A stretch of 64,000 nucleotides of DNA from Fundidesulfovibrio terrae. GTDB taxonomy: Bacteria > Desulfobacterota > Desulfovibrionia > Desulfovibrionales > Desulfovibrionaceae. Under the pieces are notes generated by a model, which made no database searches, was not told the DNA's origin, and saw only the letters and a list, made by a program, of their open reading frames with translations. Positions 15,494 through 37,081 of this stretch are shown here, in pieces. Each line of letters starts with the position of its first letter. Position 1 is the first letter of the stretch. The position numbers were made by a program, and so were the translations under genes. The stretch covers positions 1,472,753 through 1,536,752 of the forward strand of contig NZ_JAKZFS010000001.1 of assembly GCF_022808915.1 (NCBI RefSeq). Reading direction: 5' to 3'.

Positions 15494-17335
15494 CTAAATA
15501 ATCCCGTGCAGCGGCCCCCCGGGCGCGCCGAGGCTGTCAGTGAACTTCTCCGCCTCCGGATCGGGATCGAGGGGAGGGGCGTGGTACGTCTTGAGCCGCG
15601 CGTCGATGATGACCGGTCCCCGGCATCCCCAATGCTTGCAGTGGATGAACTCGCCCACGCCGTAGGTGTCCGTGGCCGGGTCGGAGCGGGTGAAGGTCAC
15701 CCAGAGGAAGTTCGCCCAGGATTCGGCCGTGAACGGCGCATCGTCCGCCACCACGACCAGGGGGAAGCCCTCGAGCCCCGCTTCCGCGGTCATGGCCCGG
15801 GCCAGTCCTTCCATGAGCGGGTCATGCTCGTCCCGGCCCCTGCCGTGGGGCGGCCCCTGGAGGACCAGGACGCCCGGCGCGAAGAGGCGGGCCTGGCTGA
15901 AGCCCTCCGCGAGACGCAGTCCCGTGGGCATCTCCCTCCCGAGCTCCCTGCGCTTCTCCCCCGTGACGGCGATGACCACCTTGGACCCCTGGTTGAGGCT
16001 TATGCCCGAGTAGTCGAGGGTATCCATGGTCGTCCGGGTGATGAAGTGGAGGTCCCTGGCCGGGTCGATCCGTTCCAGCATGTGCCGGAAGAAGGTCGGG
16101 ACGTCGTGGCAGTGCAGCGAGGGGTTGTCCTCCTTGGCCGCGATGAGCACGTATTTGGAGAGGGAGGTCTGGGTGGTGCCAAGCAGGGAGAGGGCGTTGG
16201 TGATGAGCTCCTGGGGAGTCCTCTCGGCGGCGTAAGGCACGTAGCGCTCGCTGCCGATGGCCAGCAGGAGGGGATGGACCCCTGCCTCGTCCACGGCGTG
16301 GACCTCGTGGACCCCGCTGAAGACGGTGGAGACCAGCGGCGCGGTCAGCTCGTGGATGAATTTGCCGAAGACCGTGTCTTCCTGGGGCGGCCTGCCCACC
16401 GTGGTGAAGGGCCAGACCGCGTCCGGCCTGTGGTAGACCTTGTCCACCGTCAGGACCGGGAAATCATGGGCGAGGCTGTAATAGCCGAGATGGTCGCCGA
16501 AGGGACCTTCCGGGAGTTCGCGGCCTTGAGCGATCCGGCCGGTGATGCAGAAATCCGCTTCGGCCAGGATGGGCAGCCCGCCAGGCCTGTCGATCATGTC
16601 CATCCTGCGCCCGCCCAGCGCTCCCGCGAAGAAGAGCTCCGGCATTCCCTCGGGAAGCGGCATGACCGCTGCCACGGTCATGGAAGGCGGGCCGCCCACG
16701 AAGATGTTCACCTTGAGCGATTCGCCCCGGGCCAAAGCCTCGCCATGATGGTGCCCGATGCCCCGGTGGATCTGGTAATGCAGGCCGATTTCCCGGTCCG
16801 GCTCGAAGGATTGCCCGGAGAGCTGGACCCGGTACATGCCGATGTTGGAGCGGGCGAAGCCCGGATGGGCCAGGCTCTCGGTGTAGACCTGGGGCAGCGT
16901 CACGTAGCCGCCGCCGTCGTTCGGCCAGGATTTGAGCTGGGGGAGCTGGGATATCCGGGTTTGGTTCGCCAGGACCGGGCCGTCCTTGACCCGCCTGGGC
17001 AGGGCGTGGACCAGGGCCGCCGGGACGCCGAGATGGCGCCAGGGGCGCTTGAAGGCCTCCGTGGGGTCGAGCTTCAGTTTGAAGAGGCTCTCGATGGCGC
17101 GAAGCGTCTTGCGAAAGATGAATTTCGTCCGTTCCATGGTGCCGAAGACGTTGCCGACCATGGGGAAAGGGGTGCCCTTGACGCGGGTGAACAGGATGGC
17201 GGGGCCATTGGCCCGGAAGACGCGCCTCTGGATGGCCGCCACCTGCTGGTCGGCGTCGACCTCCACGTCGATGCGCCTGAGTTGCCCGGTCGCTTCCAGG
17301 TCACGCAGACACTCGGAAAGATTTCTGTAGCTCAT
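15494..17335 (-). CDS. UbiD-family prenyl-FMN-dependent decarboxylase
   Basis: 613 residues, the long form of the family. It opens with YRNLSECLRDLEATGQLRRI, typical of UbiD proteins, and has the conserved middle part (SNIGMYRVQLSGQSFEPDREIGLH... HHGEALARGESLKVNIFVGG) with the ARGE/LKVNI segment around the prenyl-FMN and metal site, then GPFGDHLGYYSL with the catalytic Glu/Asp region. These enzymes remove or add CO2 on aromatic or unsaturated acids using prenylated FMN made by UbiX. It follows an acyl-CoA ligase and a cyclic-nucleotide-binding protein on the same strand; a role in menaquinone synthesis or aromatic acid use are both possible, and context does not decide. Confidence 0.9.
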   Translation of the reverse strand: MSYRNLSECLRDLEATGQLRRIDVEVDADQQVAAIQRRVFRANGPAILFTRVKGTPFPMVGNVFGTMERTKFIFRKTLRAIESLFKLKLDPTEAFKRPWRHLGVPAALVHALPRRVKDGPVLANQTRISQLPQLKSWPNDGGGYVTLPQVYTESLAHPGFARSNIGMYRVQLSGQSFEPDREIGLHYQIHRGIGHHHGEALARGESLKVNIFVGGPPSMTVAAVMPLPEGMPELFFAGALGGRRMDMIDRPGGLPILAEADFCITGRIAQGRELPEGPFGDHLGYYSLAHDFPVLTVDKVYHRPDAVWPFTTVGRPPQEDTVFGKFIHELTAPLVSTVFSGVHEVHAVDEAGVHPLLLAIGSERYVPYAAERTPQELITNALSLLGTTQTSLSKYVLIAAKEDNPSLHCHDVPTFFRHMLERIDPARDLHFITRTTMDTLDYSGISLNQGSKVVIAVTGEKRRELGREMPTGLRLAEGFSQARLFAPGVLVLQGPPHGRGRDEHDPLMEGLARAMTAEAGLEGFPLVVVADDAPFTAESWANFLWVTFTRSDPATDTYGVGEFIHCKHWGCRGPVIIDARLKTYHAPPLDPDPEAEKFTDSLGAPGGPLHGII

Positions 17336-17343
17336 GGGTCCTC

Positions 17344-17372
17344 AAAAGAAGCTGGCGGCCGACGGCCGCCAG
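17344..17372 (-). terminator. Terminator-like hairpin after the cyclic-nucleotide-binding gene
   Basis: On the minus strand a perfect 9-bp stem (CTGGCGGCC / GGCCGCCAG, three-base loop) is followed by CTTCTTTT. It lies between the cNMP-binding gene and the UbiD-family gene, so it could attenuate readthrough. Confidence 0.65.
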
Positions 17373-17400
17373 GTTGTCACGCCGGGGGCTGTCCCCGTGG

Positions 17401-17901
17401 CTACAAGTATTCCACCAGCTTCACACTGGTGTTGCGCAGCCTGAAGCTCATGAGCCGGGCGATGTTGGTGGTCACCTTGAGGGCCAGTTCTGTGTCCTTG
17501 GCGCACAGCGACTCGTACATCTTCCTGGTCAGGATCAAGAGCGACACGTCGTTCAAGGCCTTGGCCGTGGCCGAGCGGGGCGGGCCTTCGATCAGGGCGA
17601 GCTCGCCGAAGGCGCGGCCAGGGCCGATGCGCACCAGGCATTTGGGCTTGTGGTCGGGCGAGGTGTCGCGCTTGGTGATTTCGATGGAGCCCTCCAGGAT
17701 GATGGCCATGGAGTCGTCCGGATCGCCTTCATGGAAGATGATGGACCCCTTGGGGAAACGGGCCAGTCGCACGTATTTGCAGAGCCCCTTGACGTCGTTC
17801 TCGGTGAAGTCCTTGGCCCAGGTGGAGTCGTCAAGCATCTCCAGGAGCTTCGGGCCGACGTCGGGGTTGTGGAAAAGGTCTTCGCAACCGTCGTAGTCCA
17901 T
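17401..17901 (-). CDS. Cyclic-nucleotide-binding domain protein
   Basis: 166 residues, essentially one cNMP-binding beta-roll plus flanking helices. The core reads IIFHEGDPDDSMAIILEGSI (residues about 55-74) and then GRAFGELALIEGPPRSATAKA, where GELALI..PRSA is the phosphate-binding cassette with the conserved Glu and Arg seen in CRP and PKA regulatory subunits. No helix-turn-helix follows (the C-terminus is MSFRLRNTSVKLVEYL), so it is not a CRP-type transcription factor and more likely acts by binding a partner. The GGAGG ribosome site is six bases before the ATG. Flanked by acyl-CoA ligase and UbiD-family genes on the same strand. Confidence 0.88.
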   Translation of the reverse strand: MDYDGCEDLFHNPDVGPKLLEMLDDSTWAKDFTENDVKGLCKYVRLARFPKGSIIFHEGDPDDSMAIILEGSIEITKRDTSPDHKPKCLVRIGPGRAFGELALIEGPPRSATAKALNDVSLLILTRKMYESLCAKDTELALKVTTNIARLMSFRLRNTSVKLVEYL

Positions 17902-17946
17902 GGTTGTCCTCCGCCCGGCGGGTATGCCACAGGGCTCAAAAAACCG

Positions 17947-19629
17947 CTAGGCCGGGCGCACCTCGTGGTTTTCGGCCCGCAAGGTCCGCTTGAGCACCTT
18001 GCCCACGAAAGTCTTGGGGAGTTCATCCCGAAATTCCACGAACTTGGGCGTCTTGTAGGAGGCCAGCTTCTCCCGGCAGAAGGCCCAAACCTCCTCCCGG
18101 GCCAGCGTCTGGCCGGGCTTGGGGACGATGTACACCTTGATGACCTCGCCCCTGGTGCGGTGCGGCACGCCCACCGCAGCCACTTCCGCCACCTTGGGGT
18201 GCTCGTGCAGCACCTCCTCGATCTCGCGCGGGTAGACGTTGTAGCCGCCGGTGATGATGAGGTCCTTCTTGCGGTCCACGATGAAGAAGTAGCCGTCCTC
18301 GTCCATGACGGCCACGTCGCCGGTGTGCAGCCAGCCGTCCTTGATGGTCTGGGAGGTGTCCTCGGGGCGGTTCCAGTAGCCGAGCATCACCTGGGGCCCC
18401 TTGAGGATGAGTTCCCCGGGTTCGCCCGGAGGCAGCGGGGCGGTTGAGCCGTCCAGGGCCACCACGCGGGCGATGGTGTCCGGGAAGGGCACGCCGATGG
18501 AGCCCGGCTTGCGGCTCCCCACGATGGGGTTGAAGTGGGTGATGGGCGAGGCCTCGGTGAGCCCGTAGCCCTCGATGATTTCGGCCTCCGTCACCTCGGA
18601 GAAGCGGCGCATGACCTCGATGGGCAGCGGGGCAGAGCCGCAGACGCAGTAGCGCACGCTTTTCAGGTCGTAGTGGGGCAGGGCCTTCTGCTGCAAAAGC
18701 GCCATGTACACCGAGGGCGTGCCCGGGAAGATGGTGGGCCTGTGGCGCTGTATGGCCTTGAGGGTGTCCAGCGGGTCGAAGCGCGGCAGGGGGACGATGG
18801 TGGCCCCGCAGGCAGTGGCGAAGTTGATGTTCACCGTGAGGCCGTAGATGTGGAAGAAGGGCAAAAGCCCCAGGAACACCTCAGGCCTGCCGCCGATGGC
18901 GTGGAGGATGGCCCGGGACTGCTGCACATTCACCGACAGATTGCGGTGGGTGAGCATCACGCCCTTGGACACGCCGGTGGTGCCGCCGGTGTATTGCAGT
19001 GCGGCCAACTGCTCGGCGGGATCGAAATCCCGGTCGTAATATTCGTCGGGGGCGAAGGCCGCCTGCCAGTCCAGCACGCGCCTGCCGTCCGCGCCGAGTT
19101 TCGGGAGCTTCCCTTCGCGCCAGGCCTTGAGCCGGTAGAGCCAGTTGAGCGGAAATCCCAGCCCGCCGCTGACCCGTGTGACGATGATGCGCTCAAGCGG
19201 CATGCGGGTGAGCAGCTCGCGGTGCCTGGCCCAGAGGAGATCCAGCACCACAAGCACCTTGGCCCCGGAGTCCTCCAGGATGTGCTTAAGCTCCGTCTCC
19301 ATGTAGAGCGGGTTGACGAACACCACCGTGGCCCCGGCGTAGAGCGTCCCCCAGTAGCTGACCACCGTCTGGGGCAGGTTGGGCAGCATGATGGCCACGC
19401 GGTCGCCGCGCTTGACACCCATGCGGCGCAGGCCCTCGGCGAAGCGCCCGGCGCGCCTGCGAAGGTGGGCGTAATTGACGCGCCAGTTCTGGAAAGCCAC
19501 GGCCGTGCGGCCGGGAGTGTTCTCCACGGCCCGGTCCAGGAGGGCGGTGACGGGCTCGTCGCGGTAGGTGATGCTGGCCGGGACGTTGGGGTCGTAATGG
19601 GCCAGCCAGGGAGCGTCTTGTTGGATCAT
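17947..19629 (-). CDS. Long-chain fatty-acid--CoA ligase (FadD-type AMP-binding enzyme)
   Basis: 560 residues, normal for FadD. AMP-binding signature YTGGTTGVSKGVMLTHRNL about residue 205, then EGYGLTEASPITHFNP, the TGDVAVMDEDGYFFIVDRKK hinge (Asp, Arg and Lys of the C-terminal lid) and GGYNVYPREIEEVLHEHPKV, with the catalytic Lys near the end (PKTFVGKVLKRTLR). It activates a carboxylic acid, usually a long-chain fatty acid, to its CoA thioester. The next two genes downstream (cNMP-binding protein, UbiD-family decarboxylase) are in the same direction with short gaps. An aromatic or other acid as substrate cannot be excluded. Confidence 0.92.
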   Translation of the reverse strand: MIQQDAPWLAHYDPNVPASITYRDEPVTALLDRAVENTPGRTAVAFQNWRVNYAHLRRRAGRFAEGLRRMGVKRGDRVAIMLPNLPQTVVSYWGTLYAGATVVFVNPLYMETELKHILEDSGAKVLVVLDLLWARHRELLTRMPLERIIVTRVSGGLGFPLNWLYRLKAWREGKLPKLGADGRRVLDWQAAFAPDEYYDRDFDPAEQLAALQYTGGTTGVSKGVMLTHRNLSVNVQQSRAILHAIGGRPEVFLGLLPFFHIYGLTVNINFATACGATIVPLPRFDPLDTLKAIQRHRPTIFPGTPSVYMALLQQKALPHYDLKSVRYCVCGSAPLPIEVMRRFSEVTEAEIIEGYGLTEASPITHFNPIVGSRKPGSIGVPFPDTIARVVALDGSTAPLPPGEPGELILKGPQVMLGYWNRPEDTSQTIKDGWLHTGDVAVMDEDGYFFIVDRKKDLIITGGYNVYPREIEEVLHEHPKVAEVAAVGVPHRTRGEVIKVYIVPKPGQTLAREEVWAFCREKLASYKTPKFVEFRDELPKTFVGKVLKRTLRAENHEVRPA

Positions 19630-19933
19630 GGCGGTGGTCTTCGCTTGGTGAATGTTTCGTGCTCCTAACCTGCCGCATGTTACATGGCAATGACGTCAGG
19701 CCAGGCGCCTCGCCCGGCGGGAAAGTGCCGGGACGGGCGAGGATTGCCCCTGTAGAGACTTTACGCCCCCGGAGCTTTTCTGTTATGTACGACACCCTTT
19801 GGCAGAGGCAAGGGCATGTTCGGCATGTTCCCGTATCGTCGAACCCGTGCGCGAGCACAGCATTTCAAAGCACCAAATCCACATATCGAGAGAGAGCGCC
19901 GACGCGCGCCCGATAAGCGGCAAAGGAGCGGCA
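19630..19933. other. Divergent intergenic region of 304 bases
   Basis: Lies between the acyl-CoA ligase (minus) and the deoxyhypusine synthase-like gene (plus). It should hold promoters for both. I see no clear -35/-10 pair, no gene and no strong hairpin. Confidence 0.5.
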
Positions 19934-20905
19934 ATGACCACCATTTCCAAATTCATGGACCATCACTTCAGGCATTTCAACGCCCGTGAGACGTTGGATG
20001 CCGCAAGGGCCTGGAACAAGCTTCTGGACGACGGCGGCCAGATGTTCCTCACCATGGCCGGGGCCATGAGCACCGCCGAGATCGGCATCATCCTCTCGCG
20101 CATGATCCGCGCGGGCAAGGTCCACACCATCTGCTGCACGGCGGCGAACCTGGAAGAGGACCTCTTCAACCTCTTCAACCACAACGAATACAAGATGGTC
20201 CCCCACTACCGGGACCTCTCCCCCGAGGCCGAAAAAGAGCTCTATGACGACGGCTTCAACCGCGTCACCGACACCTGCATCCCCGAAGGCATCATGCGCC
20301 AGGTGCAGCGCGAGATCACCCGGCTCTGGAAGAAGGCCGCCGAGGAAAACACCCCCAAGTTCCCCTACGAGTTCATGTACGAGCTGCTGGACCAGCCCGG
20401 CATCGAGAAGCACTTCCAGGTGCCCGCCGAGGATTCCTGGGTGCTGGCCGCCAAGGAAATGGGCGTGGTGATCTACACCCCCGGCTGGGAAGACTGCACG
20501 CTCGGCAACATCTTCTGCTCCGAGATCATCCGGGGCAACGTGAAGAGCCACGCCGCCATCCGCCACGGCACCGAGCAGATGGAGCACCTGGCCAAGTGGT
20601 ACATCGAGATGGGCAAGAAGAAGACCCCCATCGGGTTCTTCCAGATCGGCGGCGGCATCGCCGGCGACTTCCCCATCTGCGTGGTGCCCATGCTGATCCA
20701 GGACCTGGAGCTGGAAGACACCCCGTTCTGGGCGTACTTTTGCCAGATCAGCGACTCCACCACCAGCTACGGGTCGTACTCCGGCGCGGTGCCCAACGAG
20801 AAGATCACCTGGGGCAAGCTTGATATCGATACGCCCAAGTACATGATCAACTCTGACGCTTCGATCGTCGCGCCGCTGATCTTCAGCTACGTGCTGGGGG
20901 ATTAG
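19934..20905 (+). CDS. Deoxyhypusine synthase-like protein
   Basis: 323 residues, with AAAGGAG before the ATG at 19934. The deoxyhypusine synthase fold is clear: GAMSTAEIGIILSRMIRAGKV, TAANLEEDLFN near the NAD site, SSS-like and HGTEQ segments, and the active-site lysine Lys295 in NEKITWGKL (the enzyme-imine lysine in the eukaryotic enzyme). Eukaryotes and archaea use it on eIF5A; bacteria lack eIF5A, and bacterial homologues are thought to act on free polyamines, for example making homospermidine. I therefore favour a polyamine aminobutyl transferase, unproven. It stands alone, closed by a strong terminator. Confidence 0.88.
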   Translation: MTTISKFMDHHFRHFNARETLDAARAWNKLLDDGGQMFLTMAGAMSTAEIGIILSRMIRAGKVHTICCTAANLEEDLFNLFNHNEYKMVPHYRDLSPEAEKELYDDGFNRVTDTCIPEGIMRQVQREITRLWKKAAEENTPKFPYEFMYELLDQPGIEKHFQVPAEDSWVLAAKEMGVVIYTPGWEDCTLGNIFCSEIIRGNVKSHAAIRHGTEQMEHLAKWYIEMGKKKTPIGFFQIGGGIAGDFPICVVPMLIQDLELEDTPFWAYFCQISDSTTSYGSYSGAVPNEKITWGKLDIDTPKYMINSDASIVAPLIFSYVLGD

Positions 20906-20947
20906 TTGCTGCGCAAGTAAGCGACCGGAAAGATTGACGAGATGAAG

Positions 20948-20979
20948 AAGGCCGCGCCCGAAAGGGTGCGGCCTTTTTT
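20948..20979 (+). terminator. Intrinsic terminator
   Basis: Stem AAGGCCGCGCCC / GGGTGCGGCCTT with loop GAAA and six T, 42 bases after the deoxyhypusine synthase-like gene. Confidence 0.9.
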
Positions 20980-21043
20980 GTGTTTGAGCGGCTTTAGCAC
21001 GCGCGGCGCAGTAAAAGTGGACGCTGGCGCGGGCGGCGCAATG

Positions 21044-21280
21044 TCATGCGCTGCAACTTTTTGCCTCGAATGAAAGGCAGGTGATGCATGATTCTCGAGT
21101 GACGGGATGCATCATGTTGTTGATGAATTTTGAAGAGTCGTCGTAGAGTCGTATCCAGGGTTTTATGCTGGCCGGAAGGGGGATGCCGGAGAACTGTTCG
21201 GCCCAGCGGCAAAGTCCCTTGGCGTCCGGATCGTCGGAATCCCATCTCGGCTCATACTTACACCATTCGCACGTGCCCAT
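21044..21280 (-). CDS. Small Cys-rich protein divergent from luxI
   Basis: 78 residues from the ATG at 21280, chosen for the GGGGAGG site five to six bases upstream; the open frame to 21316 adds 12 residues without one. Cysteines are paired: CEWC near the N-terminus, one in GLCRWAEQF, then CITC and a last CSA, so a metal (zinc or iron) site is plausible. No family is recognised. Its start codon is about 58 bases from the edge of the lux-box palindrome shared with the divergent luxI, so it may belong to the quorum-sensing regulon. Confidence 0.65.
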   Translation of the reverse strand: MGTCEWCKYEPRWDSDDPDAKGLCRWAEQFSGIPLPASIKPWIRLYDDSSKFINNMMHPVTRESCITCLSFEAKSCSA

Positions 21281-21338
21281 GTCGTCCTCCCCGATCAGTT
21301 GAATAAAGGCATTCAATATCGAAAAGGGTTACGCTGAC

Positions 21339-21358
21339 ACCTGTCATTTCTAACAGGT
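21339..21358. promoter_or_regulatory. lux box (LuxR-type operator)
   Basis: 20-bp palindrome ACCTGTcatttctaACAGGT. Both six-base half-sites and the 8-bp spacing equal the Vibrio fischeri lux box pattern (ACCTGT-N8-ACAGGT); the arms extend by one base pair each side (CACCTGT/ACAGGTG). It ends 55 bases before the luxI ATG and is followed by an AT-rich TATAAATATT segment (21373-21382) suited to a -10 element. Confidence 0.85.
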
Positions 21359-21413
21359 GACGAGCTACTGATTATAAATATTCATCCTCTCAAAACGGCC
21401 AGGAGGGGATGAT

Positions 21414-22133
21414 ATGTCCAGCGCGCTCGTGTTCGAACGTCGGGAGTATGAAGGTGTTTGGATTAGTGAGGATCAGTTTTCGGCCAGAAGCATCGATGAT
21501 GATGAAGAAATGCTGAAGGGGTACAGATTAAGGCACGAGGTGTTTGCGGAGTCCTTGCGGTGGGTTCCCGTTCGAAACGATGGTTTGGAATGCGATGCTT
21601 ACGATGACGATGCGGTTCATTTTGGAGTGTTTGAAGGGCCAAGGCTTCTGGCTTACCTGAGAGTCATCAAGCCGGGGCGGAGATTCATGGTCGAGAGTGA
21701 TTTCCGCAGCATGGTTGGGCCGCACTACACCATTCGCAAGGACAGCCGCACCGGGGAGATGTCAAGGTTGTGCCTGTCGCCGTACGCAAAGCAATTGATG
21801 CGTGCCGAAAATTTCGGCTACAACAGCATCCAGATGATGCTTCATAAGTGCGTTTATCACTGGTGCAACGCGAATGATATACGTTATCTATATCTGGCTG
21901 TCGAGAAGAAGGTGTACCGGATGATGCGGATTTGCGGCTTTGTGTGCAGGCCTATTGGGGATCCTGTCGTGATGCCGGACGGTGTTGAGGCCGTTGCTGC
22001 AATTCTGGACCTGCGCGAATTCGATGAGCTGAACTCTCGGAAGAACCCAAAAATGTATCAGTGGTTCAGTCAATTTCAATCAATCCACAATGTATTGCCT
22101 GTGCAACAGCCTGGGATCGGTTTACGGCATTGA
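21414..22133 (+). CDS. LuxI-family acyl-homoserine-lactone synthase
   Basis: 239 residues with AGGAGG upstream of the ATG. All seven residues invariant in LuxI-type synthases are present with near-canonical spacing: Arg40, Phe44, Trp50 (RHEVFAESLRW), Asp61, Asp64 (ECDAYD), Arg83 (YLRVI) and Glu115 (GEMSR). These bind S-adenosylmethionine and the acyl-carrier protein-borne chain, giving an acyl-homoserine lactone. The protein is longer than typical LuxI (about 200) at both ends, like the LuxI-like acyltransferases linked to PEP-CTERM/exosortase systems, and a PEP-CTERM protein lies 1.5 kb away. The lux box upstream and the LuxR gene downstream favour a true autoinducer synthase. The signal molecule cannot be predicted. 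Confidence 0.88.
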   Translation: MSSALVFERREYEGVWISEDQFSARSIDDDEEMLKGYRLRHEVFAESLRWVPVRNDGLECDAYDDDAVHFGVFEGPRLLAYLRVIKPGRRFMVESDFRSMVGPHYTIRKDSRTGEMSRLCLSPYAKQLMRAENFGYNSIQMMLHKCVYHWCNANDIRYLYLAVEKKVYRMMRICGFVCRPIGDPVVMPDGVEAVAAILDLREFDELNSRKNPKMYQWFSQFQSIHNVLPVQQPGIGLRH

Positions 22134-22836
22134 GTTTTCTCAGTATGTTGTATATGTGAAAATTCACTGTCCGTTCGCTGATGTTGAGAATGACGGACAT
22201 GTCCCAAGAGCTTTTTCCGTCTTTGAGCCAGCGCAGGATCTCGCGTTCCCGTTTCGAGATTTTGCAGGCCAGGGCTGAAGTGTCCCTGCTGTGCATGAAG
22301 GTGGAAATGGCTTGATGCAAATGGGGGATTATTGTTTCGAGGATTTTGACCGTCCGGAGTTCAAGCTTTTTCATGATGGGGCTGGAAAACGAAAACAGGC
22401 TCGCATGTTTCCATTGGCCGAACGGACGTGAACCATGCGTATATCCATCTGTCAGTCCAAAATCCGTTGAGATGGATACATATTCCGATGGTGGAGGGGT
22501 GCGACGGTACGTCTGCCGCCAGTATTGTACAGAGAAGGATTTGAAGTTTTCGTTGATGATGACGTCGGATTCGAGAAAATTCTTTTCGTAGTATACTCGT
22601 AGCCAATCAGCGGGGTAGCTGATGTTCTCGATGTTGTAGGAGATGATCGAGTCGGTTCCGAGTTTGGCTATTCCTGAAAATGCATGGTCGAACTGGAAAA
22701 GCTTCTTCAATTTTACGAATATCTCGTGATATTCGTCGCTTGTTGTGCAAAACAGGCATTGCTGAATAATTTCAAGCAATACGATTGCGTCGTCCCCAGA
22801 CATTTCCTGTTCTGGAATGGATCTGAGGGGGAACAT
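22066..22836 (-). CDS. LuxR-family autoinducer-binding transcription regulator
   Basis: 256 residues from the ATG at 22836, which has GGAGG upstream. The N-terminal autoinducer-binding domain keeps most ligand residues by TraR spacing: Trp78 (W57), Tyr82 (Y61), Asp91 (D70), Trp106 (W85) and Gly127/Gly131 (G109/G113). Pro71 is replaced by Val92, and the usual Pro after the Gly loop is absent. The C-terminal GerE/LuxR helix-turn-helix runs from about 192 (SKREREILRWLKDGKSSWDM, then NISERTVNFHIYNILRKLNA). The gene is convergent with luxI and the last 68 bases of the two overlap. It most likely binds the lux box at 21339-21358. Its GC content is lower than that of neighbours. Confidence 0.9.
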   Translation of the reverse strand: MFPLRSIPEQEMSGDDAIVLLEIIQQCLFCTTSDEYHEIFVKLKKLFQFDHAFSGIAKLGTDSIISYNIENISYPADWLRVYYEKNFLESDVIINENFKSFSVQYWRQTYRRTPPPSEYVSISTDFGLTDGYTHGSRPFGQWKHASLFSFSSPIMKKLELRTVKILETIIPHLHQAISTFMHSRDTSALACKISKREREILRWLKDGKSSWDMSVILNISERTVNFHIYNILRKLNAVNRSQAVAQAIHCGLIEID

Positions 22837-23016
22837 GATTACCCTCCGCTGGATAATTCGACTCCTCTGGTGAAGATGGGGGCGCAAGGCAAGGATTATT
22901 CGTCGGGTGGATAAATTGCAAGTGCTGATATTTTGAGCGCCCAGACAAGGGGAAGAGGCGCGTGGCCACTTGCCGGTGAGGCGTTCCTGCGCGTTCAGGG
23001 CGCTCCATCACCGTCA

Positions 23017-23492: not shown

Positions 23493-23677
23493 TGTTGGCT
23501 GTAGGAATTGTAAAGAATCATTCATGGCATGTCGGTTGATTTGACAACCTCAACTGCTGACACAGTTATCGTTGGCCTTTATGTTGTAGTTCTTTCTCGC
23601 AGTTCTGATGTGGAATAGTTGTTGCTGCCTTTGTGGGTGAGCAAACGGTGGGAGGTAAACATGAGGAGGGTGTAATA

Positions 23678-24616
23678 ATGAGAACGTCTCTGGTGGCATA
23701 TATCGTGTTTGTGTTCTTTGTGTCGGCTGCTGCATCTGCGTGGGCCATCCCTGTGCTGGAGGGCCCAGGAAACACCCCGAGCGGATGGACCCTCATGGGA
23801 GGGAGCCTGGGCGGCGGGGTCAAGGCGAGCGCGCCTCCGTTCCTGTCGCCCAGTGGCGATCCCGTGGATCTTTATATCGTCACGGACAGCGGCGGAGGCT
23901 TTCCGGCGCTCAATCCAACCAGTCTGGCGGCCTCGGCCATACCCGGAGCTCCCGGCATTCCCGGTTCCACCAACGGCAGTGCGATGATTTCACCGGTGTT
24001 CACGGCCGTCGCAGGCGAAAAGATCAACTTCGACTTTTCGTTCATCACCAACGACGGCACGGACACCTTCTCCGACTGGGGGGCGGCCTATCTGCTGCCC
24101 GTTGACGCCAGCGGCGCGCCCACCGGAGCGTCTCCGCTCAATTTCTTCACCGCGCGCACCGGGGGCAGCGGTTCGGCCGTGCCCGGATTCGGATTCAGTG
24201 GCTTCCCGTCCGGCCTGGTCCTCACGCCGTCCTCGGCAGGCCTTCAGGGAGACGTCTTCTTCCTGAATCCGTTGACGGCGGGCACCTCCGGGGCTGATCC
24301 CGACGCCACGCAATACGGCCCCAACGGCTACCCGCAGGATCCAAGCAGTTCGCCAGGGAACGGACTGGGCGGTTCGACAAACTGGGTCAACGCGGTTTTC
24401 ACCTTCGACACGACGACCGCCGGGACCTACGCGCTTGTTTTCGCCGTGGCCAACGTCGGTGATGAGATTTACTCCAGCGGGCTGCTCATCGCCGGAGGTT
24501 CGGTGCAAGGCGACGATCCGAGCCTTCCCTCGGCTGTGCCGGAACCGTGCGGCCTGGTTCTTCTTGGCTCCGGCTTGGCCTGCTCCGCCTTGATGCGGCG
24601 GCGTGCAGGGAAATAA
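23678..24616 (+). CDS. PEP-CTERM sorted exported protein
   Basis: 312 residues from the ATG at 23678 (GAGGAGGG seven bases upstream). Signal peptide MRTSLVAYIVFVFFVSAAAS with cleavage likely after AWA (about residue 24). The mature region is rich in Gly, Ser, Pro and Asp, with beta-type blocks (GEKINFDFSFITNDGTDTFS, WVNAVFTFDTTTAGTYALVF) like other secreted PEP-CTERM proteins. The C-terminus is a complete sorting signal: VPEP, a hydrophobic stretch (LVLLGSGLACSALM) and the RRRAGK basic end. Exosortase cuts at such signals and attaches or releases the protein at the cell surface, often with exopolysaccharide. No exosortase gene is in the window. Confidence 0.87.
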   Translation: MRTSLVAYIVFVFFVSAAASAWAIPVLEGPGNTPSGWTLMGGSLGGGVKASAPPFLSPSGDPVDLYIVTDSGGGFPALNPTSLAASAIPGAPGIPGSTNGSAMISPVFTAVAGEKINFDFSFITNDGTDTFSDWGAAYLLPVDASGAPTGASPLNFFTARTGGSGSAVPGFGFSGFPSGLVLTPSSAGLQGDVFFLNPLTAGTSGADPDATQYGPNGYPQDPSSSPGNGLGGSTNWVNAVFTFDTTTAGTYALVFAVANVGDEIYSSGLLIAGGSVQGDDPSLPSAVPEPCGLVLLGSGLACSALMRRRAGK

Positions 24617-24640
24617 TTCCGGCTCGAGCGGCACAATACA

Positions 24641-24672
24641 AAAGGCAGAGCCGTGACGGCCCTGCCTTTTTT
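24641..24672 (+). terminator. Intrinsic terminator of the PEP-CTERM gene
   Basis: Stem GGCAGAGCCG / CGGCCCTGCC (nine of ten pairs) with loop TGA and six T, 24 bases after the stop. The A-rich flank lets it act for pckA on the other strand as well. Confidence 0.85.
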
Positions 24673-24711
24673 CGTTTCAACCATATGCCGCCGAGCGGCC
24701 GAGTTCCGGGG

Positions 24712-26301
24712 CTATTTCTTGATGGATTCCACGATGGCCCGGTCGAGCCCCCCGAAGGATTCCAGGATGCCCAGGCGTGTCTCGTGGAGCGCGGCCTGGC
24801 GCTTGCCGAACTCGCCCTTGGGGAAAAGCTTTTCCGGATGCATGAGGATGGACTCCACGCCGCTCACAGCCTTGGGCACGGCCAGGCCCACGGCCTCGTT
24901 GACCTCCCAGTCCTCCAGGTCGCCGCGTAGGATGGATTCCAGGATGTTCACCGTGTCGCCAAGGGTGATCTTGCGGAAGTGCTCGCCTTCTCCCACGCCG
25001 CCGGTGTTCAGCAGGTAGCAGTTGATGTGCGGGTTTGCGGCGAGGATCTCGTGGAAGAGATGGGCGTGGTCCACCCGGTCGCCAGCCAGGAAGGGGTCGT
25101 AGAAGAAGACGTTCTTGATCTTGCCCGCCTGGGTAGGGTCGCCGGCCGAGGACTCCATGGATTGTCCCAGCACCATGAAGGCCGAGGCCTGCTCGGGCGT
25201 GAGCTTGGACACGGCGGGCACTGTGGGGCCGCGCGTGATGATGAACAGGTTGTTGACGTCGCTGGCCGTGATGTGCCGGTGGGCGTGCATGAAGTCGCGG
25301 CGCTCCACCACCACGCGGCCGTTGGAGGTCAGCTCGATGTTGAAGAAGTCCATGTCGCCGTTCTGGTCGACGTGAACGTTCTCCAGGTAGGCGTCGGGCT
25401 TGAGCGCGCCGTAGTAGGTCTCGATCTGCTCGCTGGGGGTCAGGCCGTCGGTCTTGGCGTAGATGCCGCCCTGTTCGAAGCCGTGGAAGGAGCCGTCGCG
25501 CTTCAGGATGCCGCCGTCGTCCTGGATGAGCCAGGATTCCTCGCCGTTCTTGCGGGCCATGACCCGGCAGGTGAGCGAGGTCTTGCCATTGGCCGAGAGG
25601 GCCACGAAGAGCGAGGTCTGGGTCTGCATGCCGCCGTGGGCCATCTCCAGGCAGTCGCGGCGGCATCCGGCGTGCAGAAAGATGCCCTGGCGCTCGAGCT
25701 TGGCGCGCCAGTCCTCGCCGGCGAACACGCCTTTCTTCCATTCGCCCAGGTAGCTGGAGTTGCGCACCAGCTTGATCATGCGTCCGTCCTGAGAGTGCAC
25801 CAGGCGGATGGTGATGTCCTTTTCCGGCAGGGGTTTGGAACCGTTCTGCTCCCATGCGTCGTCGTAGAAGAAGATCACCTGGTAGGTGGGGTCGGTGACG
25901 TTGTTCACCCGGGGGCCAAAGAGCTTGTGGCCGCCGTAGGCGATGTGGGCGAAGCGGCGCGGCACCAGGAGCCTAGCCGTGACCGGCTGCCCCTCGTCGC
26001 GCACCAGCACGTCCATGCATATGAGCTGCTGCTTGTTCAGCGCCTGCTTGGCCTGGGCGAGCAGAGCGAACTCGGCCTGGCCGTAGGTGGCGTCGATGTT
26101 GTTCTTGGTGAAGGGCTTGGCCCGGGACATGGGCTCGGTGTTGGCCACGATGCTGCCGTAGCTGGTCTCGCGGACCTCGGGCTCCTCCAGGCAGATCCGC
26201 CTGAGCCTTTCCGGGCCGGGATTCTGGATGAGGCGTTCCTCATCCACGGCGTTGGCGTAGAGCTGCTTGATTGCGATATCGAACTCGTCGAAAAAAGCCA
26301 T
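24712..26301 (-). CDS. pckA: Phosphoenolpyruvate carboxykinase (ATP)
   Basis: 529 residues, full length. Converts oxaloacetate and ATP to phosphoenolpyruvate, CO2 and ADP, a gluconeogenic step. The kinase-1a P-loop is ALSANGKTSLT (GxSxxGKT, in the canonical enzyme GLSGTGKTTLS), followed by metal site region LIQDDGGIL and the adenine region (RNFYDDA-like IFFYDDAWEQ). The ATP-type family is recognised by MSRAKPFTKNN near residue 60 and FFNIELTSNGRVVVERRDF. The unusual Ala-Asn in place of Gly-Thr in the P-loop keeps the Gly, Lys and Thr. It is monocistronic between the PEP-CTERM gene and hldD. Confidence 0.92.
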   Translation of the reverse strand: MAFFDEFDIAIKQLYANAVDEERLIQNPGPERLRRICLEEPEVRETSYGSIVANTEPMSRAKPFTKNNIDATYGQAEFALLAQAKQALNKQQLICMDVLVRDEGQPVTARLLVPRRFAHIAYGGHKLFGPRVNNVTDPTYQVIFFYDDAWEQNGSKPLPEKDITIRLVHSQDGRMIKLVRNSSYLGEWKKGVFAGEDWRAKLERQGIFLHAGCRRDCLEMAHGGMQTQTSLFVALSANGKTSLTCRVMARKNGEESWLIQDDGGILKRDGSFHGFEQGGIYAKTDGLTPSEQIETYYGALKPDAYLENVHVDQNGDMDFFNIELTSNGRVVVERRDFMHAHRHITASDVNNLFIITRGPTVPAVSKLTPEQASAFMVLGQSMESSAGDPTQAGKIKNVFFYDPFLAGDRVDHAHLFHEILAANPHINCYLLNTGGVGEGEHFRKITLGDTVNILESILRGDLEDWEVNEAVGLAVPKAVSGVESILMHPEKLFPKGEFGKRQAALHETRLGILESFGGLDRAIVESIKK

Positions 26302-26451
26302 AGACTCGCCTCTCTGGGTTGGTTGCGGGCACTGCGGCGCTTGTACATCATTTCACGAAGTCAGCCAAGGACAAAGCAGTGTTGCATTCGCAGCCCGGCT
26401 GGCATAGTTGCGGGAAAACAGGCACTTCGCACGCGCGCACAGGGGGGCCGT

Positions 26452-27423
26452 ATGCTGATCGTCACCGGTGGAGCCGGGTTTCTGGGCAGCGCCGTCATCT
26501 GGAAGCTGAACGAGGCGGGCCGCCAGGACATCCTGGTGGTGGACAACCTGGGGCGAAGCTCCAAGTGGCGCAACCTGGTGAACCGGCGCTACGCCGACTA
26601 CATCCACAAATCGGATTTCTTGCGGCGCATCGAAGGCGGCAAGGACCCCTTCGGGATCACGGGCGTTGTGCACATGGGGGCCTGTTCGTCCACCACCGAG
26701 CCAGACGCGGACTACCTCTACGAGAACAACACCCGCTTCACCACGGAGCTGTGCCGCTGCTGCCTGGAGCGCGGCGTGCGCTTCGTGAACGCCTCCAGCG
26801 CGGCCACCTACGGCGACGGCTCGCGGGGCTTCGGGGACGCGCATTCCGGCCTGGAAGCGCTCAGGCCCATGAACATGTACGGCTACTCCAAGCACCTCTT
26901 TGACCTCACGGCCCTGAGGAACGGCTGGCTGGACGAGATCGCCAGCCTCAAATTCTTCAACGTCTACGGCCCCAACGAATACCACAAGAACGATATGATG
27001 AGCGTGGCCTGCAAGGCGTTCTCCCAGATCGGCGAGCGGGGCAGGGTGCGTCTTTTCCGGTCGCACCGCGAGGGCGTGGAGGACGGAGGGCAGCTTCGGG
27101 ACTTCGTTTACGTGAAAGATTGCGCAAACGTGGTCTGCTGGCTGCTGGAGAACTCGGAAGCCAGTGGGGTGTTCAACGTGGGAACGGGAAAGGCGCGCAG
27201 CTTCAATGATTTGGTGGGGGCGGTGTTTAAAGCCCTGGGGCGCGAGCCGGACATTGAATACGTGGACATGCCCGAGACCATCCGGGATACCTACCAGTAT
27301 TTTACCGAAGCTCCCATGGGGAAGCTGCGGGCCGCCGGGTACGACAGGGAGTTCACGTCGCTGGAAGAGGGCGTGAAGGACTACGTGCAGGGGTATCTGG
27401 CGGGTAAGGATAGCTTTCTATAA
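26452..27423 (+). CDS. hldD: ADP-L-glycero-D-manno-heptose-6-epimerase
   Basis: 323 residues; the open frame extends far upstream only as a shadow of pckA. Starts MLIVTGGAGFLGSAVIWKLN, the NADP-binding GxxGxxG, and carries HldD-specific segments: VVDNLGRSSKWRNL, the Thr/Ser site ACSSTTEPDADY, NASSAATYGDG, the catalytic Tyr and Lys in MYGYSKHLFD, and FNVYGPNEYHKNDMMSVA. It epimerises C6 of ADP-heptose for the inner core of lipopolysaccharide, so the organism makes a heptose-containing core. A run of G precedes the ATG. No other heptose gene adjoins. Confidence 0.93.
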   Translation: MLIVTGGAGFLGSAVIWKLNEAGRQDILVVDNLGRSSKWRNLVNRRYADYIHKSDFLRRIEGGKDPFGITGVVHMGACSSTTEPDADYLYENNTRFTTELCRCCLERGVRFVNASSAATYGDGSRGFGDAHSGLEALRPMNMYGYSKHLFDLTALRNGWLDEIASLKFFNVYGPNEYHKNDMMSVACKAFSQIGERGRVRLFRSHREGVEDGGQLRDFVYVKDCANVVCWLLENSEASGVFNVGTGKARSFNDLVGAVFKALGREPDIEYVDMPETIRDTYQYFTEAPMGKLRAAGYDREFTSLEEGVKDYVQGYLAGKDSFL

Positions 27424-27478
27424 GGGGCAGATTTTCTTTGCCTGGTGAATTGCGGAAACAGTGTGCAGGGGAGGGGTG

Positions 27479-28504
27479 ATGTTTATTGAGAAGGATCGTC
27501 TTGCAAAGTTTGTTCATAATAATTTCTTGTTTGTTTATAATGCGGCGTTGCTAGTTGTGGCGATTGTCATCTACTTGTTTCTTTTAAATATTCCCGAGAC
27601 TGGTGGTATGGTAAAGAGGCAATTTTGGGTTTCATTGTTTGTTTCTGTCTTTGTTGCGGCAATGCTTGGGTTGATTCCGAAGATTTATGAGTATTGTGCG
27701 AAGTATCTTGAAGCGGGTAGGATCACGAGTTTTTTTGGAACCTCAATACGGATTAACCCTGTTAGGTATGTGTTTCCATATAGAGTTTTGTTGAGAGAGT
27801 ACAGAGAGCAAAAAACACATGTGTGGGAGACGTATTTTACGCCAGATGTGGAGCCCTCAAAGATTCCTGTTCCGGAGGGAGTGAGGGCTTGGATCCCCTT
27901 TCAGGACATTAGGGCCGCCGTCTACGTCTCACGATTACTCGGGCGATATGTTGATATCACCCCGAAGTATATCGTTGATAGTGATATTTCTGAATATAAT
28001 CTTGATGAAATTGACTATACTATGGTTGCAATCGGGCTAGGATTTAATTGGGCAACCAATTTAATTGAAAGGTTCACTAGGCAGAAGCTGTTTAAAATAG
28101 TTTGGGATGAATCTTGTAAGTTTGGTGTTCGGTGCACAGATCACTTTATTGTTCCGGGGTTTGATGTTGATATATCAGATAAAGATAGGGATTATTCGAT
28201 TATTGCTCGTGTTGCTTGTCCGCAGCAAGAGTGTAAAAATTCGAGATATTTTTTTGTGTGTGCAGGAAGAACAGCAGATGGAACGGCTGCGGCTGGATAT
28301 TTTTTACAAAAAAAATGGAAAGAAATATTGAAAATGTATGGTTCTGGGGCAGGAGATAAGAAGGACTTAGAGAAGGATAGCATGGTTGTTGTTGTTGAGC
28401 ATCAGTGTTCAAGTGAACAGGGGAAAGAGATGGAGATGAATGTTCAATTTGCCAGAAAAGAAGGAGAGCCTGTAGTCCGATTCTTTCGGAATGAAGAATC
28501 ATAA
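27479..28504 (+). CDS. AT-rich membrane protein with two N-terminal helices and unknown soluble domain
   Basis: 341 residues from the ATG at 27479 (GAGGGGTG upstream). Two membrane helices (about 18-36 and 50-69) form a hairpin, followed by a cytoplasmic domain of about 260 residues. Notable segments are DIRAAVYVSRLLGRYVDI, VDSDISEYNLDEIDYTMVAI followed by GLGFNWATNLI, DYSIIARVACPQQECKNSRY and FFVCAGRTADGTAAAGYFLQ. The pairing of a buried acidic patch with a Gly/Asn strand end and a GT-Ala helix suggests a Rossmann-like sensor domain; I cannot name it. Codon use is strongly AT-rich, unlike hldD and mutL on either side, so it is a recent insertion. A defence or stress accessory is a guess. Confidence 0.72.
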   Translation: MFIEKDRLAKFVHNNFLFVYNAALLVVAIVIYLFLLNIPETGGMVKRQFWVSLFVSVFVAAMLGLIPKIYEYCAKYLEAGRITSFFGTSIRINPVRYVFPYRVLLREYREQKTHVWETYFTPDVEPSKIPVPEGVRAWIPFQDIRAAVYVSRLLGRYVDITPKYIVDSDISEYNLDEIDYTMVAIGLGFNWATNLIERFTRQKLFKIVWDESCKFGVRCTDHFIVPGFDVDISDKDRDYSIIARVACPQQECKNSRYFFVCAGRTADGTAAAGYFLQKKWKEILKMYGSGAGDKKDLEKDSMVVVVEHQCSSEQGKEMEMNVQFARKEGEPVVRFFRNEES

Positions 28505-36994: not shown

Positions 36995-37081
36995 GCCGGG
37001 ATGGCGGAATTGGTAGACGCAGCGGACTCAAAATCCGCCGAGGGCAACCTCTTGGGGGTTCGAGTCCCCCTCCCGGTACCA
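36995..37081 (+). tRNA. tRNA-Leu (CAA)
   Basis: 87 bases including an encoded CCA. Acceptor arm GCCGGGA pairs with TCCCGGT (one G-U); D-arm TGGCGGAATTGGTAGACGC; anticodon loop CTCAAAA with anticodon CAA in the stem GCGGA/TCCGC; a long variable arm as in class II tRNAs; T-arm GGGGGTTCGAGTCCCCC. It is the attachment site of the integrated element, whose right end carries a partial copy. Confidence 0.97.

Follow-up and report, generated by a model that had tools for sequence, protein, structure and literature searches.

In Nitrospira, a single lux box serves both nspI and a divergent gene, which are activated there by the regulator NspR1 together with C8-homoserine lactone (C8-HSL) (PMC8553950; this and the other papers cited by PMC number are represented here by excerpts). 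Desulfuromonas soudanensis has a LuxI/LuxR pair, and its culture extract activates an indicator strain for N-acyl homoserine lactones (AHLs) (PMC4914508). Here we analysed a 64,000-nucleotide stretch of the genome of Fundidesulfovibrio terrae (positions 1,472,753 to 1,536,752 of contig NZ_JAKZFS010000001.1, assembly GCF_022808915.1; hereafter the window), which carries a luxI-type gene for a predicted AHL synthase of 239 amino acids (aa; 21414..22133, + strand), a luxR-type gene for a predicted AHL receptor/regulator of 256 aa when read from the ATG at 22836 (22066..22836, - strand) and, 5' of luxI, a perfect dyad of the lux box type (21339..21358). The two genes are convergent, and the 3'-end of luxR overlaps luxI by 68 bp. 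Our results suggest, with a probability of about 0.8 judged from sequence, that these elements form a functional LuxI/LuxR circuit in which luxI is autoinduced through the lux box.

The LuxI of Geotalea (Geobacter) uraniireducens (P0081), a metal reducer, belongs to the same LuxI family and is 44% identical to that of the window. An AHL biosensor screen yielded a metagenomic LuxI (Nasuno et al. 2012) with 42% similarity to the G. uraniireducens protein (PMC4485178). The D. soudanensis system resembles that of the window as a LuxI/LuxR pair within the former Deltaproteobacteria, but its host is a metal reducer and its LuxI is 24% identical to that of G. uraniireducens (PMC4914508). The Nitrospira system is alike in having a cognate pair (NspI/NspR1) and a lux box before the luxI gene that is common to a divergent gene; it differs in that this divergent gene encodes a GGDEF/EAL protein, whereas that of the window encodes a 78-aa CxxC protein, and NspI was compared by description only. 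Gel shifts in the Nitrospira system needed RNA polymerase (PMC8553950).

AHLs have been reported from Desulfovibrio cultures, together with LuxR homologues (PMC5187520, PMC8586430), and a review that mined the genomes of sulfate reducers described synthases as lacking (PMC5187520); the excerpts of these papers agree with the remark in the initial annotation of this DNA that there are few descriptions of AHL systems from Desulfovibrio-like bacteria. LuxI homologues of sulfate reducers are mentioned in general terms in PMC9659907, with no LuxI gene in the excerpt of its table. A 2024 study found Syntrophobacterium fumaroxidans and its partners to be without a homologue of known AHL synthases (PMC10787695), luxR-linked clusters have been described in three Deltaproteobacteria (PMC5872303), and two surveys gave no Desulfo- or Geobacter match in the excerpts of their main texts (PMC11069264, PMC13136126). 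Among the open-licence literature matches listed, which are no proof of absence, none of the titles concerned a LuxI/LuxR pair from Fundidesulfovibrio or Solidesulfovibrio, and we met with no account of such a pair in these sulfate reducers, of its layout or of its box. The kind of pair is already known. In GenBank, some of its relatives bear the name of AHL synthases, including one of Solidesulfovibrio magneticus (as AHL synthetase).

The predicted synthase and receptor

Both reading frames and the palindrome were found where the initial annotation had placed them. It had also presumed the host to be a sulfate reducer and, in agreement, a profile search of the host genome (a 7-contig draft of 3,904,129 bases) gave a dsrA match above the cut-off (596.7 bits). 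The host profile search also detected one autoinducer-binding LuxR, one exosortase and a single TIGR03694 match, which was the window LuxI.

LuxI passed the gathering cut-off of PF00765 (40.5 bits, cut-off 24). The seven residues held to be invariant in such proteins (R40, F44, W50, D61, D64, R83 and E115, a list taken from the initial annotation and from recall) were indeed all present, were invariant across family alignments of 15 and 60 members, and occurred in 10/10 plasmid AHL synthases. Phe and Trp occupied the F44 and W50 columns in 35/35 family rows, in 11/11 other LuxIs of the phylum and in 10/10 plasmid AHL synthases. The family rows were hand-picked, 29 of them from 120 listed proteins (234 found) and the others from six loci, with two rows being duplicates; the phylum LuxIs were the 11 highest of 22 PF00765 places, with the window's own excluded and ten lower ones left out. 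Structure comparison showed the fold of an AHL synthase in the modelled LuxI. Its product is predicted to be a diffusible AHL.

LuxR passed the gathering cut-offs of both PF03472 (61.8 bits, cut-off 23) and PF00196 (73 bits, cut-off 23.5). Nine residues are classical for LuxR proteins, namely W57, Y61, D70, P71, W85, G113, E178, L182 and G188. Eight of them had a counterpart in the window protein (W78, Y82, D91, W106, G131, E197, L201 and G207, with E197 and L201 assigned by their spacing from G207); the position of the usual Pro71 is occupied by Val92. LuxR would be expected to sense an AHL as its ligand and probably to bind the dyad.

Convergent cassettes and the lux box

Of 348 genomes searched in the order, 10 matched the LuxI family, 7 of them strongly, and a converging luxR was present at all seven strong loci, overlapping luxI by 68 bp in the window and by 80 bp in the six others. 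Because only 10/348 genomes match, the cassette is unlikely alone to explain the AHLs of D. vulgaris. Ten further loci of the phylum all had a converging luxR, nine of them with an overlap of 53-80 bp and one with a 41-bp gap. In a scan of named genomes, a single-protein query gave no match and query A2 gave 23 loci, from Nitrospirota, Geobacter, Desulfobulbaceae, Desulfocapsa, Acidiferrobacter and others. Twenty were examined and 18 had a converging luxR (14 overlaps of 17-119 bp, four gaps of 29-37 bp); the contigs of the remaining two stop 105 and 114 bp past luxI. Nitrospirota proteins fell within the window's LuxI family. A second, weaker LuxR-like match (22-30% identity) was seen past the converging luxR at six of the phylum's loci, L077, L078, L080, L082, L083 and L084.

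Among the matches listed, the closest named relative of the pair was in Fundidesulfovibrio butyratiphilus (LuxI 53% and LuxR 61% identical), where the two genes bear the neighbouring locus tags JCM15519_01360 and JCM15519_01370. The convergent layout of the window was also found in five genomes of g25, a genus of the same family as the host that includes S. magneticus (Desulfovibrionales, Thermodesulfobacteriota), although there the boxes at the aligned place are degenerate and the small divergent open reading frame (ORF) is a different one. In a comparison that covered the four near-identical g25 loci in part, what the window had in common with the six other loci was limited to luxI, luxR and the small ORF, with the ORFs that overlap these genes, and a conserved effector neighbour was rejected because no further gene was shared. 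L017 gave weak matches (28-32%) to ORFs of those four g25 loci.

The dyad consists of ACCTGT-CATTTCTA-ACAGGT at 21339-21358 (whole box, ACCTGTCATTTCTAACAGGT) and ends 55 bases 5' of the luxI ATG; CACCTGT/ACAGGTG extends it to 22 bp. The 20-bp palindrome with its 8-bp centre was therefore as first reported, and the exact 12-base dyad proved to be the only copy in the 3,904,129-base genome. Its half-sites, 8-bp centre and position before luxI are as in the lux box of Vibrio fischeri, where luxR is divergent from luxI, whereas in the window it converges on and overlaps it.

The best match to ACCTGT-N8-ACAGGT in the 250 bp before luxI was used as the box score, with the start codons of other loci assigned by rule. 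A score of at least 10/12 was obtained upstream of 9 of 17 luxI loci, three of them perfect (the window, L079 and L081), and in eight of the 17 the box had p <=0.01 against Markov-chain shuffles; this set omits L085, which is short. In the named genomes, 11 of 19 upstream regions reached at least 10/12 and two were perfect, the 19 being the 23 loci minus L127 and L131 (contigs of L019 and L022), L146 (partial) and L147 (no room). The two sets partly overlap, L128 and L079 have the same box sequence and could come from a single organism, and the relatives are not independent. None of 228 control upstream regions reached 10/12 (best 9/12, in 16). These controls were ORFs of at least 200 aa from both strands, with spurious ones among them; most came from high-GC genomes, and they were not GC-matched. 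The dyad upstream of luxI is thus beyond chance and recurrent in relatives. The position of the window box aligned with a degenerate AACTAG-N8-ACAGGT or -ACAGTT at the five g25 loci; L018 had an additional 10/12 match farther upstream, and the four near-identical loci had shuffle p values of 0.05-0.41.

According to the proposed mechanism, AHL-bound LuxR would act at the box as an activator of luxI, leading to autoinduction. The box would cover the -35 position of luxI, and a TATAAA recognised by eye (21373..21378, + strand) may be its -10 element. A sigma-70 scan detected no full promoter in the luxI upstream region, as expected if an activator is required.

Alternative explanations and the weight of the evidence

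LuxI could be read instead as a TIGR03694-type N-acyltransferase of the exosortase/PEP-CTERM system, whose product, an N-acyl amino acid, would serve the envelope or exopolysaccharide (EPS) system, with LuxR as an EpsA-like EPS regulator. The best NCBIfam matches of the two proteins were in fact TIGR03694 (65.2 bits) and EpsA (TIGR03020, 82.7 bits), a PEP-CTERM-like gene adjoins the cassette in a genome with one exosortase, and four of the 120 listed database relatives are named 'N-acyl amino acid synthase of PEP-CTERM/exosortase system'. However, LuxI stayed below the curated TIGR03694 cut-off of 111.95 (with 56.7 bits in the genome search) and LuxR below the EpsA cut-off of 170, the EpsA match being best over residues 160-265 of a 273-aa reading of LuxR. 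The diagnostic Trp and Phe of LuxI match those of AHL synthases, whereas the TIGR03694 rows had Phe at the W50 position in 15/15 and Tyr at the F44 position in 13/15 (18 rows aligned, with the fragments L044, L054 and L055 dropped). In the tree, which left out these fragments as well as EXO_L060, PHY_L085, P0010 and P0020 (the last two being copies of L019 and L018), the 14 exosortase-type rows formed one clade with a support of 100/99 and the window LuxI fell outside it. The host exosortase sits on a different contig from luxI, an exosortase match was absent from 5/7 luxI-bearing genomes, and exosortases above the cut-off were found without luxI in G002, G003 and G006, together with a weak match in G001 and none in G004. 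Upstream of the 14 exosortase-type acyltransferase genes no box of at least 10/12 was found, the best score being 8/12. The profile, residue, tree and co-occurrence tests led us to reject this reading, which we regard as very improbable; LuxI did not group only with exosortase-type acyltransferases, the outcome that the initial annotation had named as contrary to its proposal.

Two further alternatives retain both the synthase and the receptor. LuxR might be a repressor released by the AHL, like EsaR, rather than an activator, and the esaI/esaR genes are convergent, as are those of a Pantoea plasmid pair (13-bp gap). However, the box lies before luxI over the predicted -35 position where no full sigma-70 promoter was seen, no box of at least 10/12 was found before luxR, and in Nitrospira the box from which NspR1 activates precedes nspI (excerpt of PMC8553950), so that we consider repression rather unlikely and activation the probable mode. 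The signal might also carry a non-fatty acyl group (an aryl- or branched-HSL made via acyl-CoA, as by BjaI and RpaI) instead of one from fatty acyl-acyl carrier protein (acyl-ACP). The structures gave a tie between acyl-ACP and acyl-CoA as donor and no call was made; we see the non-fatty signal as a possibility with the lesser odds, and the circuit would be unchanged by it.

Several observations weigh against a circuit of LuxI, LuxR and lux box. The raw score of LuxI was higher with TIGR03694 than with PF00765 (65.2 and 40.5 bits), yet under the TIGR03694 cut-off; the LuxI family split from the canonical synthases with moderate support (87/82), in a tree whose long branches are possibly misplaced; and Val replaced the classical Pro71 not only in the window LuxR but in all 7 rows of the order. 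The three weak LuxI-family matches of the order had no luxR match in the stretches examined. The box scored below 10/12 in 8/17 and 8/19 luxI loci, and at the position aligned to the window box 5/7 loci of the order had degenerate boxes (8-9/12). In the host genome, sites with at most two mismatches numbered 38 versus 71 for a reversed-pattern control, and no other strong box marking a regulon was found. Because there was no genome-wide excess over the control and the two one-mismatch sites were within chance, the motif does not allow a regulon to be deduced, and this candidate was rejected. An 11/12 match (G000:C1:785724-785743, L029), within chance genome-wide, precedes a gene whose product resembles, by eye, a C4-dicarboxylate symporter. 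With the exosortase grouping refuted and a lux box recurring before luxI at roughly half of the related loci, the AHL circuit proposed by the initial annotation was judged to be supported, and autoinduction through the box remains the predicted behaviour.

The divergent gene, the genomic slot and the wider family

A small ORF of 78 aa with an N-terminal CxxC (21044..21280, - strand; preceded by GGGGAGGA) is divergent from luxI and had no Pfam match. Between its start and the box lie 58 bp, and between the box and luxI 55 bp; in G005, the other luxI-bearing genome of the genus, which has a 45% identical homologue in the same place, the corresponding distances are 82 and 78 bp. The box, being midway between the two genes, would probably control both. 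Searching 345 genomes of the order gave three matches to the small ORF, two strong ones in the window host and G005, both luxI-bearing, and a weak third (8.6e-4). Each of the five g25 loci carries, upstream of luxI, another small divergent ORF of 67-98 aa (L018:8060-8356 and its counterparts in L019-L022), which matches that of G005 weakly at most (26-28% over 47-49 aa, E 0.01-0.04). The box distances, the strong occurrence of the small gene in just these two luxI-bearing genomes, and the fact that they share it though their luxI cassettes are at different loci and on different tree branches suggested to us a three-gene quorum circuit, in which the box would fire luxI together with the gene of a CxxC protein that feeds back on the circuit; this protein might, for instance, sense metal or redox state and restrain LuxR, which would redox-gate the sensing. 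We regard this as a doubtful idea, and the role of the small protein as a circuit modulator is a guess.

The G+C fraction (GC) was 0.50 over 21000-22999, compared with 0.64 over 17000-20999 and 24000-26999. One flank of the cassette (UbiD, cNMP-binding, AMP-ligase and DHS-like genes) and the other (PEPCK-like and epimerase genes) were 73-97% identical in G005, G003 and G006, where the slot of the cassette was filled by different genes; in G001, G002 and G004 the right-hand flank pair alone was found within the stretch examined. The luxI cassette of G005 is on another contig and on another tree branch than that of the window. The region is therefore a mobile-looking insert, and the cassette was probably acquired laterally. 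A tRNA as insertion site was rejected, the sole tRNA of the window being at 36995-37081. The equivalent slot in another genome of the genus (L117:4891-6717) holds a low-GC protein of 608 aa, by eye similar to a NACHT-type NTPase.

Adjoining luxR, a PEP-CTERM-like surface protein gene (23633..24616, + strand) reached 80.8 bits with NF038132 (cut-off 90) and 14.4 with TIGR02595 (cut-off 16); it is treated here as a neighbour of the cassette. The PEPCK-like protein (PF01293; 24712-26301, 529 aa) is 76-87% identical in each of the six further genomes searched within the genus. The protein encoded at 19934-20905 resembles deoxyhypusine/homospermidine synthases (PF01916, 142.5 bits), is under every listed NCBIfam equivalog cut-off, and is conserved at 95-97% identity in three genomes of the genus. 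A second patch of low GC (0.39-0.42), flanked by the epimerase and mutL-like genes, contains a 347-aa ORF (27461-28504) for which neither Pfam nor NCBIfam gave a match at E up to 1.

Together, these loci point to a large and little-studied branch of LuxI proteins in which a convergent luxR is common and a lux box before luxI is frequent. Their cassettes represent concrete synthase-receptor-site triplets, open to expression and testing.
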